DNA of 18,947 nucleotides from assembly GCA_013001485.1 (NCBI GenBank), contig JABDMN010000239.1, forward strand, positions 1 to 18,947. Reading direction: 5' to 3'. The position numbers and the translations under genes are program-made. The notes below the pieces were generated by a model. The model made no database searches. It was not told the origin of the DNA and saw only the letters and a program-made list of their open reading frames with translations. Positions 10,558-14,220 of the stretch are shown here, one piece after another. The first letter of the stretch is position 1. The number at the start of each line of letters is the position of its first letter. Source of the stretch: Acidimicrobiia bacterium (GTDB lineage Bacteria > Actinomycetota > Acidimicrobiia > Spongiisociales > UBA5794).

Positions 10558-13533
10558 TTGATCTCCTCCGAACATCGGCGCATGACCGCCCGGGCTATTG
10601 CGTTCTCACTTATTGCGACGATGCTGACGCTCGTCGCCTCCCAGCCCGCAGCTGCACAGGTCTCCAACCCCGATATCACGATCCAGGGTGGTGGATGGGG
10701 CCACGGCGTGGGCATGAGCCAGTACGGCGCGTACGGCCAATCCCTGCTCGACGACGCCACCGCCGACGACATCCTCGGGCACTACTTCCAGGACACCACT
10801 TCGGGCACGCTCGGTGTCGACTTCCCTGATCCCGGCACGATCTGGGTCAATCTCGAGCGCGAGGTGTCCTCTATCGATCTGGCTCTCGAGCCTCTTGGCC
10901 CCGATGCAGCACCGGTAACAGTGAGTTTCGGCGACACGGTCGTCGCGCTGACCGAGACGTCGATCGTCGAATTCGCAGTGACCGACGCCGAAGCAGACCC
11001 GGACCCTCTCTGCGTGACGACCATCGACGGCGTCGCATCCGAGCCGGGACCCTGCGACATCGACATCGACTGGGACGGCTTCTCCCCGAGCCCAACGTCA
11101 GCATTCACCATCACCAACGTGGCCCATCATGAAGGCTCCCCCGACGGTGCCGCATGCACTCTCGCCGACTGGAACGCCATTCCCAGCACCATCCAGCGCC
11201 CCTGCAAGTACTCCTACGGCAGCCTCCACATCCGCCCCGACGACGACACAGCTTCGTTCCACCTCGTGCTGGAGATCGACGTCGACGACTACGTCCGCGG
11301 GATATCGGAGATGCCGTACTACTGGGGCCTGCCCACCGACGGACCGAACGGCCAGGCCGCGCTCGAGGCCCAGGCGATTGCGGCTCGCTCGTATGCGGTG
11401 CATCGGTCGATCGTTCGGGGCGACCCCGAGGACAGGCCGTGGTGCCACTGTCAGATCTACGACACCACCGTCGACCAGCGATACGTCGGCTACGGCCACG
11501 TGGGGCTGGGCCACGAACGATGGGAAGAGGCCGTGGTCGCCACGTCCGGAGTGGTTCGAGCCCATCCAGCTGCGACCTTCGAAGGCCAGGCTGTCCCCGT
11601 GCAGACCTTCTACGGTTCGTCGACATTCGGCAGAACCGAGCCGTCCGAGGTCGGCTTCACTTCGGCTGTCCCCTACCTCATCAGCGTCGACGATCACTGG
11701 GGCATCGACCCTGCCGTCGGAAACCCGCGAGCCACGTGGACGGTGGTCTTCACTGCATCTGAACTCGCCCAGAGCCTCGGGTGGCCAGACGGCTCAGAGG
11801 TGGCAGGCGTCGACATCGTCTCCTGCTCGCCATCGGGTGCAGCGGCAGAGGTCCGGTTCACCGACGGTGACGGACTGGTCGACACCAGGCCGACACGGAA
11901 CCTGCGCACCGCTTTGGGGCTGAGGTCGCCGCAGATCACCAACATCGGGAACCCGGTCACCGGCCCGCCTCCGTGCGGTGGCCTGGGCGACAACGGCGTC
12001 GAGTTGTACGGAATCACAATCGACGATGGCCCGACCGGCGACAGTGTCGGCAACGACGACGGGATCGCCCAGTGCGGCGAGACCGTCGAATTGCGCACGA
12101 CGGTTCGCAACCTCCTGGCAGGGACACTCACCGGCGTCAGCATGATCGCCAGCTCGGCCGATCCCCATCTGGCGGTGTTGCACAACACGTCCTCGGCGGC
12201 CGACGACATCCCCGGTGGTGGCACCGGCGAGAACCTGAACGACTGGGACATCGCCGTGCTGCCTTCAGCGCCGGACGGTCACGTCGGTCGCATCGAGCTC
12301 GAGGTGGCCGCAGCCGAAGGTGGGCCGTGGGAGATAGAAGCACTGCTTCCCATCTCGTGTCTGGAAGACAACGCACCGACTCTGGTGGCCGGGCCGCTCA
12401 CTGTCGATGACGGACCAACCGGGGACAGCGATGGCAACAACGATGGCATCGCCGCGTGTGGCGAGACGGTCGAGATCTACATCCCCCTGACGAATGACGG
12501 AGACTCAGACCTCACGGCGGTGATCGCCGCGCTCGAGATCCATGACCCCGCAGCGACGGTGCTCCACAACACGACATCGACATACCCGTCGTTGCCGAGC
12601 GGTGCGACCGGCGTCAATCTGAACGACTGGGACGTGGTGCTGTCGCCAAACACACCCGCCGGCCACGTGATGTCAGCAACGGTCACCGTGGATGCCGCCG
12701 AGTTGTCAGAGCCAGTGGCGGTGCCAATCGTCATCGACATCGATTGCGGCACCGACACCTTGCCGGTCGACCCCCCACCGACGATTCCAGTCACCATCGC
12801 TGGTCACGTGATCGATGACGGCGTCCGGGGTGACTCCGTTGGCAACAACGACGGCCTCGCCAACTGCGGCGAGACGATCGAGCTGTACATCGACCTCAGC
12901 TCGACCACGGGAGCCAGCCTGGCTGCGACATCAGTCACGATCGCCACGGACGACCCGTTGCTGACCATCCTCTACAACACGTCGTCGCCCTACCCCACGG
13001 TGCCCGAGACAGGTTCGGTCCGAAACTCGAATGACTTCGACATCGCCATTTCGCCAGCTGCTCCCCATGGCCACGAACCAGGGATCAGGCTGACGGTGGA
13101 GTCGAGTGAGGGCGGGCCATGGACGCTGGACTACCGGTTGCCTCCGATCGGTTGCGACAACGGAGTGGTGGAGGCCATCACCTTCGCCGGCCTTGTCGTG
13201 GACGACGGAGTGCGTGGCGACTCGATCGGCGACAACGACAAGCGGGCCGAGTGCGGCGAGACCATCGAGTTGTACGTCGCTCTGACGAACCAGACCGGGC
13301 AGGACCTCACGTCACCGATCGCCACCCTGTCGACATCCGATCCGTACCTGACGCTGCTCTACAACAGCGACTCTCCATATCCGGTGTTGCCCGACGGTGC
13401 CACCGCAGAGAACACGAACGACTGGGACTTCAGAATCTCAGCGAGCACGCCGCCAGGCCACGTCGCTGTACTGGACATTCAGACGTCTGGGGTCTGGTCG
13501 ACGACGGTCAGCCTGCCAATCGACTGCGGCTAA
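10558..13533 (+). CDS. Secreted SpoIID/LytB-domain protein with four C-terminal Cys-containing repeat domains
   Basis: This 991-residue exported protein starts with a signal peptide (basic end, hydrophobic 12-28, likely cleavage after Ala33 in QPAAAQ). Next comes GGGWGHGVGMSQYGAYG (44-60), then the SpoIID/LytB core: VLEIDVDDYVRGISEMP, ALEAQAIAARSYAVHRS (268-284), CHCQIYD and a QTFYGSST region up to about 460. In sporulating Firmicutes SpoIID cuts glycan strands. In non-sporulating actinobacteria the role of this family is unsettled, but a peptidoglycan-related job is likely. Residues 486-601, 614-730, 751-866 and 879-991 are four copies of one domain with core DDGxxGDSxGNxDG...CGETxEL and a closing Cys. 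TTG 10558 has a good GGAG; ATG 10582 would also leave an intact signal peptide. No membrane anchor or sorting signal is visible at the C-terminus. The gene converges with the CAP gene across nine bases. Confidence 0.9.
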   Translation: MISSEHRRMTARAIAFSLIATMLTLVASQPAAAQVSNPDITIQGGGWGHGVGMSQYGAYGQSLLDDATADDILGHYFQDTTSGTLGVDFPDPGTIWVNLEREVSSIDLALEPLGPDAAPVTVSFGDTVVALTETSIVEFAVTDAEADPDPLCVTTIDGVASEPGPCDIDIDWDGFSPSPTSAFTITNVAHHEGSPDGAACTLADWNAIPSTIQRPCKYSYGSLHIRPDDDTASFHLVLEIDVDDYVRGISEMPYYWGLPTDGPNGQAALEAQAIAARSYAVHRSIVRGDPEDRPWCHCQIYDTTVDQRYVGYGHVGLGHERWEEAVVATSGVVRAHPAATFEGQAVPVQTFYGSSTFGRTEPSEVGFTSAVPYLISVDDHWGIDPAVGNPRATWTVVFTASELAQSLGWPDGSEVAGVDIVSCSPSGAAAEVRFTDGDGLVDTRPTRNLRTALGLRSPQITNIGNPVTGPPPCGGLGDNGVELYGITIDDGPTGDSVGNDDGIAQCGETVELRTTVRNLLAGTLTGVSMIASSADPHLAVLHNTSSAADDIPGGGTGENLNDWDIAVLPSAPDGHVGRIELEVAAAEGGPWEIEALLPISCLEDNAPTLVAGPLTVDDGPTGDSDGNNDGIAACGETVEIYIPLTNDGDSDLTAVIAALEIHDPAATVLHNTTSTYPSLPSGATGVNLNDWDVVLSPNTPAGHVMSATVTVDAAELSEPVAVPIVIDIDCGTDTLPVDPPPTIPVTIAGHVIDDGVRGDSVGNNDGLANCGETIELYIDLSSTTGASLAATSVTIATDDPLLTILYNTSSPYPTVPETGSVRNSNDFDIAISPAAPHGHEPGIRLTVESSEGGPWTLDYRLPPIGCDNGVVEAITFAGLVVDDGVRGDSIGDNDKRAECGETIELYVALTNQTGQDLTSPIATLSTSDPYLTLLYNSDSPYPVLPDGATAENTNDWDFRISASTPPGHVAVLDIQTSGVWSTTVSLPIDCG
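12013..12360 (+). repeat. Repeat domain 1 of 4 in the SpoIID/LytB protein
   Basis: Residues 486-601. It opens DDGPTGDSVGNDDG, has the AQCGETVEL core, then AVLHNTSSA, GENLNDWDIAV, DGHVGR and closes at PISC. It is about 116 residues long and shares its order of motifs with the three following units. Confidence 0.85.
12397..12747 (+). repeat. Repeat domain 2 of 4 in the SpoIID/LytB protein
   Basis: Residues 614-730. It opens DDGPTGDSDGNNDG, has AACGETVEIYIPLTN, then TVLHNTTSTYPSLPSG, VNLNDWDVVL, AGHVMS and closes at IDC. This unit has the clearest Asp/Asn-rich acidic loop of the four. Confidence 0.85.
12808..13155 (+). repeat. Repeat domain 3 of 4 in the SpoIID/LytB protein
   Basis: Residues 751-866. 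It opens DDGVRGDSVGNNDG, has ANCGETIELYIDL, then TILYNTSSPYPTVPE, RNSNDFDIAI, HGHEPG and closes at IGC. A short Pro-rich linker (VDPPPTIPV) separates it from repeat 2. Confidence 0.85.
13192..13533 (+). repeat. Repeat domain 4 of 4 in the SpoIID/LytB protein
   Basis: Residues 879-991. It opens DDGVRGDSIGDNDK, where the usual DG is DK, has AECGETIELYVALTN, then TLLYNSDSPYPVLPDG, ENTNDWDFRI, PGHVAV and ends IDCG at the protein C-terminus. The closing Cys is the second-last residue. Confidence 0.85.
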
Positions 13534-13542
13534 TCGCCCTGA

Positions 13543-14220
13543 CTAGATCGGTCGGACCAGCAGGATCGATACGTGCTGGATCGGTGCCGGGGGTGCTGGG
13601 GGATCGGCACGCTTCACATCCGCTACCGGTGCCGGCGTCGTGCGCTCGGTTGTCGGTGCCGGTGCAGGTGCAGGCTTGGGCTCGGGCTCAGGAGCCGGCT
13701 CGGGCTCAGGAGTCGGCTCCGGTTCCGGGGCGGGCTCTGGGGTGGGCTCAGGCTCAGGAGCCGGCTCTGGCTCAGGCGGTGTGACCAGACCCTCGGGACC
13801 ACTCATGAACACCACGGTGACCCACATCTTCGTGTCGGTTTCGACAACGACACCAACGCCGACGTAGTTGTAGTCACCGAGGATGTTTGCCCGGTGTCCC
13901 GCCGAGTTCATGAAGGCTGTGTGGAGAGACGACACGCTGGGGCCGACACCCACGTTTTCGCCTAGTGAGTACCAGCCGGTGGTGACGCTTCCCAGGTTCG
14001 GGTTGTGGTGCAGATCGTCACCATCGAGCATCACCTGGGAGTGAGCTCTGGCGTCGTCCACGAGATCCCAGTAGACCTCGAGCGGCTCCAGGCCGTTGGC
14101 TGCACGTTCCGCATTGATCTCTGCGACGAAGCCGCTCTCGGCGCCGGCCATGGCGGGAGCGGCGAGACCGGCGACGAGGATCGTGAGAACTCCGAGAATT
14201 GCTGCCAGCCGCCGTGCCAT
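13543..14220 (-). CDS. Secreted CAP-domain (SCP/PR1) protein with Pro/Glu-rich tail
   Basis: The 225-residue protein has a signal peptide (basic MARR, hydrophobic core, cleavage likely after Ala25 in APAMAG). Residues about 31-141 form a CAP domain: EINAERAANGLEPLEV, AHSQVM with His60, HHNPNL, YSLGENV with Glu88, AFMNSAGHRANILG with His109, and VGVGVVV...WVTVVF. These His/Glu positions match the CAP metal-binding cavity. From 148 to 189 comes a Pro-Glu/Pro-Ala repeat, then a short Pro-rich end without sortase motif or membrane helix. Bacterial CAP proteins have no single agreed function; a cell-wall location with the tail spanning or binding the wall is an inference. ATG 14220 has GGGAG eight bases upstream, inside a hairpin loop. 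It ends nine bases from the SpoIID/LytB gene, tail to tail. Confidence 0.92.
   Translation of the reverse strand: MARRLAAILGVLTILVAGLAAPAMAGAESGFVAEINAERAANGLEPLEVYWDLVDDARAHSQVMLDGDDLHHNPNLGSVTTGWYSLGENVGVGPSVSSLHTAFMNSAGHRANILGDYNYVGVGVVVETDTKMWVTVVFMSGPEGLVTPPEPEPAPEPEPTPEPAPEPEPTPEPEPAPEPEPKPAPAPAPTTERTTPAPVADVKRADPPAPPAPIQHVSILLVRPI
13654..13779 (-). repeat. Pro-Glu/Pro-Ala low-complexity repeat in the CAP protein
   Basis: Residues 148-189 alternate PEPEP, APEP and TPEP units with proline at every second position. At DNA level this is a degenerate six-base tandem pattern (GGCTCx on the plus strand), so the length may vary by slippage. Such tails are extended and commonly traverse or bind cell wall. 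Confidence 0.85.

Follow-up and report, generated by a model that had tools for sequence, protein, structure and literature searches.

A SpoIID/LytB protein of an Acidimicrobiia bacterium with an apparently circularly permuted core and four tandem two-cysteine Ig-like units

The window, that is, the whole stretch of DNA analysed here (18,947 nt, contig JABDMN010000239.1 of assembly GCA_013001485.1, from an Acidimicrobiia bacterium), contains on its forward strand a single long open reading frame (ORF) of 991 codons, at positions 10558–13533, whose product combines a putative signal peptide and a SpoIID/LytB core with four tandem copies of a domain that we call the CGET unit, after its C-G-E-T motif (Table 1). 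There are two candidate starts, a TTG at 10558 and an ATG at 10582, and the database copy of the protein (P0002, 983 aa) uses the ATG. A hydrophobic helix occupies residues 5–27 in the predicted model, and the protein would be secreted.

The four units are 117–124 residues long and each contains exactly two cysteines, one in C-G-E-T and the other at the end of the unit; the motif N-D-W-D is found in units 1, 2, and 4 and N-D-F-D in unit 3, whereas G-H is present in all four. A preliminary description of this DNA had proposed four tandem two-cysteine units with these motifs, and both the motifs and the coordinates proved right, with slight deviations in two units: the core of unit 2 is CGETVEI and departs from CGETxEL, and the acidic loop of unit 4 is DDGVRGDSIGDNDKR, not of the GNxDG type. 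A profile of 18 rows, which included the four units of the window, recovered each of the copies in the source genome with E values of 6.6e-46 to 1.9e-48, and units 2–4 are 39–46% identical to unit 1; on these sequence grounds, a chance likeness among the repeats is excluded. Within the source genome (2.25 Mb, 82.85% complete), the domain is confined to this gene.

Table 1. Location of the SpoIID/LytB gene and of the parts of its product in the window.
Feature	Positions	Strand	Remarks
Whole gene: SpoIID/LytB protein with four C-terminal CGET units	10558..13533	+	TTG start, 991 aa
Putative signal peptide (MTARAIAFSLIATMLTLVASQPAAAQ...)	10582..10662	+	Judged by eye from the sequence
GGGWGHGVGMSQYGA segment	10675..10803	+	Residues 40-82; aligns with the C-terminal end of solved SpoIID proteins
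Main SpoIID catalytic part (PF08486 / TIGR02669)	11254..11943	+	E251 in YVRGISEMP, C296 and C298 invariant (22 aligned relatives)
CGET unit 1	11998..12360	+	Residues 481-601; Cys 506 and 601
CGET unit 2	12376..12747	+	Residues 607-730; Cys 634 and 730
CGET unit 3	12790..13155	+	Residues 745-866; Cys 770 and 866
CGET unit 4	13177..13527	+	Residues 874-990; Cys 899 and 990

The SpoIID/LytB domain reported as the partner of the units was borne out by two models above their curated cut-offs, TIGR02669 (residues 237–457, E 1.1e-32, 114.1 bits against a cut-off of 83.3) and PF08486 (residues 233–333, 36.3 bits against 23). The order of its parts is, nevertheless, different from the canonical SpoIID order, in which the catalytic part comes first and the GHGxGMSQ motif last: in the solved SpoIID/LytB proteins (4rwr, 5i1t, and 5txu) the GHGVGMSQYGA end is C-terminal, whereas it is N-terminal in the window protein, which also differs from them in the four Ig-like units that follow the domain. 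Since residues 40–82 (GGGWGHGVGMSQYGA) align with the end of 4rwr (276–317) and residues 267–414 with an earlier part of it (87–226), the SpoIID domain is, as deduced from the alignments, circularly permuted here and in the listed relatives. A motif of the GHGxGMSQ type precedes the one of the YVxGxxExP type in 118 of 124 protein records (in which the window protein is counted twice, as P0001 and P0002) and follows it in none, being absent in the other six. Shorter SpoIID proteins with the usual order coexist in related genomes (e.g., G018:C139 and G001:C258), and our search of the open-access literature found no paper on a SpoIID with a circular permutation. There is also a second SpoIID locus (L001) in the source genome.

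In the SpoIID protein from Clostridioides difficile, according to passages of PMC6221140, E101 is catalytic and the zinc site comprises C140, H145, C146, and H134, with zinc bound through C140 and H145. The glutamate of YVRGISEMP (residue 251), C296, and C298 do not vary among 22 aligned proteins and the enzyme is, therefore, probably active; from its motif, E251 would be the counterpart of E101. The core appears to work like SpoIID, as a permuted subtype.

An AlphaFold2 model of unit 1 is a confident Ig-like beta-sandwich (pLDDT 94.5), whose nearest structures are transglutaminase C-terminal, HAP2/fusexin, and sialidase-linker domains. The Foldseek matches are borderline, with five at E <= 0.001 (best 4.6e-04); they extend over the whole domain of a seven-strand-type sandwich and indicate a fold, not a family, and the sequence identity to the transglutaminase C-terminal beta domain, the HAP2/fusexin Ig-like domain, and the sialidase linker is 5–15%, with no common function implied. 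We used the single-unit model; searches with the full-length model mostly retrieved tandem Ig-like proteins and added little. The Ig-like nature proposed in the preliminary description is supported by the model and by the structural matches, and the four units would be tandem Ig-like beta-sandwich domains of the transglutaminase C-terminal/sialidase-linker fold type.

At E <= 1, Pfam gave no match over the units of the window protein, and neither Pfam nor NCBIfam has a model that reaches its cut-off on them. A sequence search of the PDB gave no significant match that could lend the unit a family name, with a weak match to an agarase domain (8wac_A, E 0.00046) that contains a P-G-E-T-I stretch. 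Among 18 diverse unit rows there were weak Pfam matches to CARDB (PF07705; four rows, best E 0.0055), DUF11 (PF01345; two rows, 0.018), and NPCBM_assoc/NEW3 (PF10633; one row, 0.11), which, together with the general fold in common and the sialidase linker among the structural matches, would agree with the units being ordinary members of one of these families and their cysteine pair merely a local variation. However, none of these matches is significant, so that profile searches place the unit in none of the three families, and the window protein lacks any such match at the E value given above; we consider this explanation somewhat improbable. Stretches of two NCBIfam models, TIGR03900 (MXAN_5808 family serine peptidase) and NF038112 (myxosortase-dependent M36 peptidase), match 16 (best E 1e-07) and 11 (best E 2.8e-06) of the 18 rows, respectively. 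In the window protein the likeness is in residues 488–523, spanning the acidic loop and GET; a single domain is in common and the rest differs, the window protein reaching 26.8 and 16.4 bits against whole-protein cut-offs of 660.95 and 1500 bits. From these comparisons, the unit is common to myxobacterial-type peptidase models and lacks a dedicated model in Pfam or NCBIfam; an exact-word search of the open-access literature found no paper on it. It would constitute an unmodelled domain family with a simple oxidation-dependent and testable feature, one staple per domain, and a new profile of the unit would annotate many hypothetical secreted proteins.

Searches by profile retrieved 566 unit hits in 310 proteins; 557 hits in 259 proteins were kept for coverage, and the 514 copies aligned to their end were used for a strict count. 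A closing cysteine (within two residues) is present in 274 of the 275 copies with Cys in C-G-E versus 4 of the 239 copies without it; in the first set alone the figures are 201/202 and 4/43. The exception, P0030, has an odd C-terminus, and so does P0154, a second exception in a looser count. Seven proteins contain a Ser-type unit without closing Cys beside a Cys-type unit that has it. Proline, given in the preliminary description as the residue found in this place in related domains (PGE), does occupy it in 156 of the 557 copies. The P-G-E-T relatives (T9SS-sorted, C25/gingipain-type and C1A proteins, e.g., P0034) share the profile, the acidic loop, and the N-D and G-H motifs, whereas in the non-Cys relatives Pro, Ala, Ser, or Gly replaces the first cysteine and the closing one is absent. 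Because the two cysteines come and go together, the counts strongly support one disulfide per domain, as had been suggested, and each unit very probably contains one intradomain bond.

In the model of unit 1, Cys 26 lies three residues ahead of strand 29–37 and Cys 121 directly after the last strand (108–120). The start of the second strand and the end of the last strand are at the same pole of an Ig-like sandwich, and a bond between both residues is therefore plausible; the cysteine of C-G-E-T and the one past the last strand would form a single disulfide at that pole. Alternatively, rather than pairing within a domain, the cysteines could serve as metal ligands (for zinc, for instance) or connect adjacent units or chains. 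The predicted secondary structure, which puts the closing Cys where the chain leaves each domain and not far from the following unit, would agree with this, as would the acidic residues close in sequence to the first Cys. Nevertheless, the pair is kept in single-unit proteins (52 of the best 120 of 1264 core hits have one unit), so that a partner in a neighbouring unit is unneeded; none of the 53 Cys-type units in set C is non-matching; and any other cysteine is absent in 227 of 246 copies, which leaves a zinc site of the Cys type short of ligands. Metal binding by the cysteines, or a link between units, is thus very unlikely, and we favour the intradomain disulfide.

Residues D9, D10, S16, D21, E28, and D55 are conserved (unit 1 numbering) and H95 is nearly invariant, with D55–H95 among the three strongest covarying pairs. 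In a sandwich of this kind, they would cluster at the pole of the disulfide (the end of strand A, the A-B loop, the glutamate of CGET, D55, and H95), and it is possible that this acidic and polar cluster is a site for a metal, e.g., Ca2+. No calcium-binding Ig family stood out among the structural rows in a second look, which proves nothing.

The tail of the protein has 106 listed relatives, from 7991 scored candidates in the protein database, with domains taken from a precomputed Pfam column. SpoIID and the unit occur together in 22 of them, including the window protein, and some are named "SpoIID/LytB domain protein" at source, whereas M23 peptidase domains occur in 15. The architecture is, therefore, not unique, which weakens the suggestion in the preliminary description that it may be undescribed; the unit itself, however, gave no family model at cut-off and no paper in the searches reported above. 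The CGET domain is patchy among genomes (4 of the 50 from the family and 9 of the 138 from the order have it), with SpoIID-type matches in 54 of 60 relatives, and a search pattern from the closer alignment set A3 yielded five loci in genome contigs. In G015, of the same family, the units are identical to those of P0018, an M23 peptidase-type protein. Three of the four CGET units of P0005 look letter-for-letter identical, suggesting that they were duplicated in tandem very recently or that the likeness comes from the assembly. Locus L025, on a short contig of 3991 bases whose title (Candidatus Micrarchaeota) is that of an archaeal metagenome-assembled genome, has a CGET unit with 47% identity to unit 4 from the window, possibly through misbinning.

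We surveyed the tails of relatives of the core (residues 36–475) at 40 related-genome loci, from which L003 (the window), L014 (a tail of 8 residues), and L016 (no core) were omitted, leaving 37 (L004–L022 and L046–L065). By Pfam, these tails contain SLH (16), FG-GAP (4), CWB2 (3), PG_binding_1 (2), or RTX repeats (2); three carry CGET units (L004–L006), and from reading the remainder one is SLH-like and six are propeller-like. A core tree of 158 rows, made with FastTree under long-branch warnings and with tail labels from letter patterns and not from Pfam, requires at least 19 tail changes, and at least eight of the CGET label, five of them forced by well-supported branches. Among the best 120 core hits, which are biased to near relatives, 13 proteins have four units, three have two, and one has three, besides the single-unit proteins mentioned above and 51 with none. 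In this Acidimicrobiia group the unit is a part of wall enzymes, in a slot mostly used by known envelope-attachment modules. Together, the sequence comparisons indicate that the architecture recurs, lacks a model, and takes part in an exchange of tails; a set of wall-remodelling enzymes in Acidimicrobiia would keep one permuted SpoIID core while swapping its tails, and a comparison of tails could show how poorly studied actinobacteria place their wall enzymes.

The best explanation, to which we assign a probability of roughly 0.7, is that, in the cell envelope, the four stapled Ig-like domains make up a stiff rod by which a permuted lytic transglycosylase of the SpoIID type would be kept where it works; the tail most likely serves at the envelope as a spacer or anchor that is rigid and stapled. 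It builds on the computed repeats, the fold prediction, the co-occurrence of cysteines, and the exchange of tails with known envelope-binding modules, from which we infer the disulfide itself, the geometry of the pole, the metal, secretion, and the role as spacer or anchor. Several results weigh against it. An independent-pairs test on the unit tree found three pairs on supported branches, all in the expected direction (sign test, p 0.25), and with just these three the cysteine statistics rest largely on shared ancestry. By mutual information the cysteine pair comes first among 5886 once the protein sequence is used to recode the closing column, but without recoding it ranks 2011 of 5886, because that column is mostly gap in the non-Cys copies; our conclusion on the cysteines relies on the direct counts. 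Additionally, papain-type C1A (PF00112) and C25 (PF01364) peptidase domains each occur in 6 of the 106 listed tail relatives; these are secreted proteases, and the unit is consequently not tied to wall enzymes. Lastly, in P0090 (Acidimicrobiia) one CGET unit precedes SLH domains and a PQQ-dependent sugar dehydrogenase part, which goes against a strict anchor; the unit and SLH in one protein fit a spacer better than an anchor. By eye, the start of P0090 resembles the end of a SpoIID core.

The same exchange of tails raises the possibility that CGET units are wall- or S-layer-binding modules, exchangeable with SLH, CWB2, or PG_binding and targeting the enzyme by direct binding of a ligand, since they occupy the same C-terminal slot and are swapped with these modules on the core tree, often in four copies. 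However, the slot is also filled by beta-propeller-like FG-GAP (4/37) and RTX (2/37) tails, which to our knowledge are not known as wall binders, and the unit is also found on proteases of other phyla and, in P0090, together with SLH; direct ligand binding is thus an unlikely and bolder alternative to the stapled rod. Similarly tentative, and rather doubtful at present, is the more specific proposal that CGET units of the Cys type represent an unnamed module, stapled by a disulfide, for attachment to the envelope, and that this module replaces SLH, CWB2, and peptidoglycan-binding modules on permuted SpoIID enzymes in Acidimicrobiia; if true, actinobacteria would have a fourth means of attaching wall enzymes to their envelope.

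The nearest named relative among the matches listed is an Acidimicrobiia metagenome-assembled genome (MAG) protein (P0003, also L023), with 74% identity over the tail, and the closest genome in the genome collection is from the same genus, with 76% identity over the whole protein. The SpoIID gene ends 10 bases from a convergent neighbour on the reverse strand (13543–14220), which encodes a secreted CAP-domain protein whose tail is a long Pro-Glu repeat.
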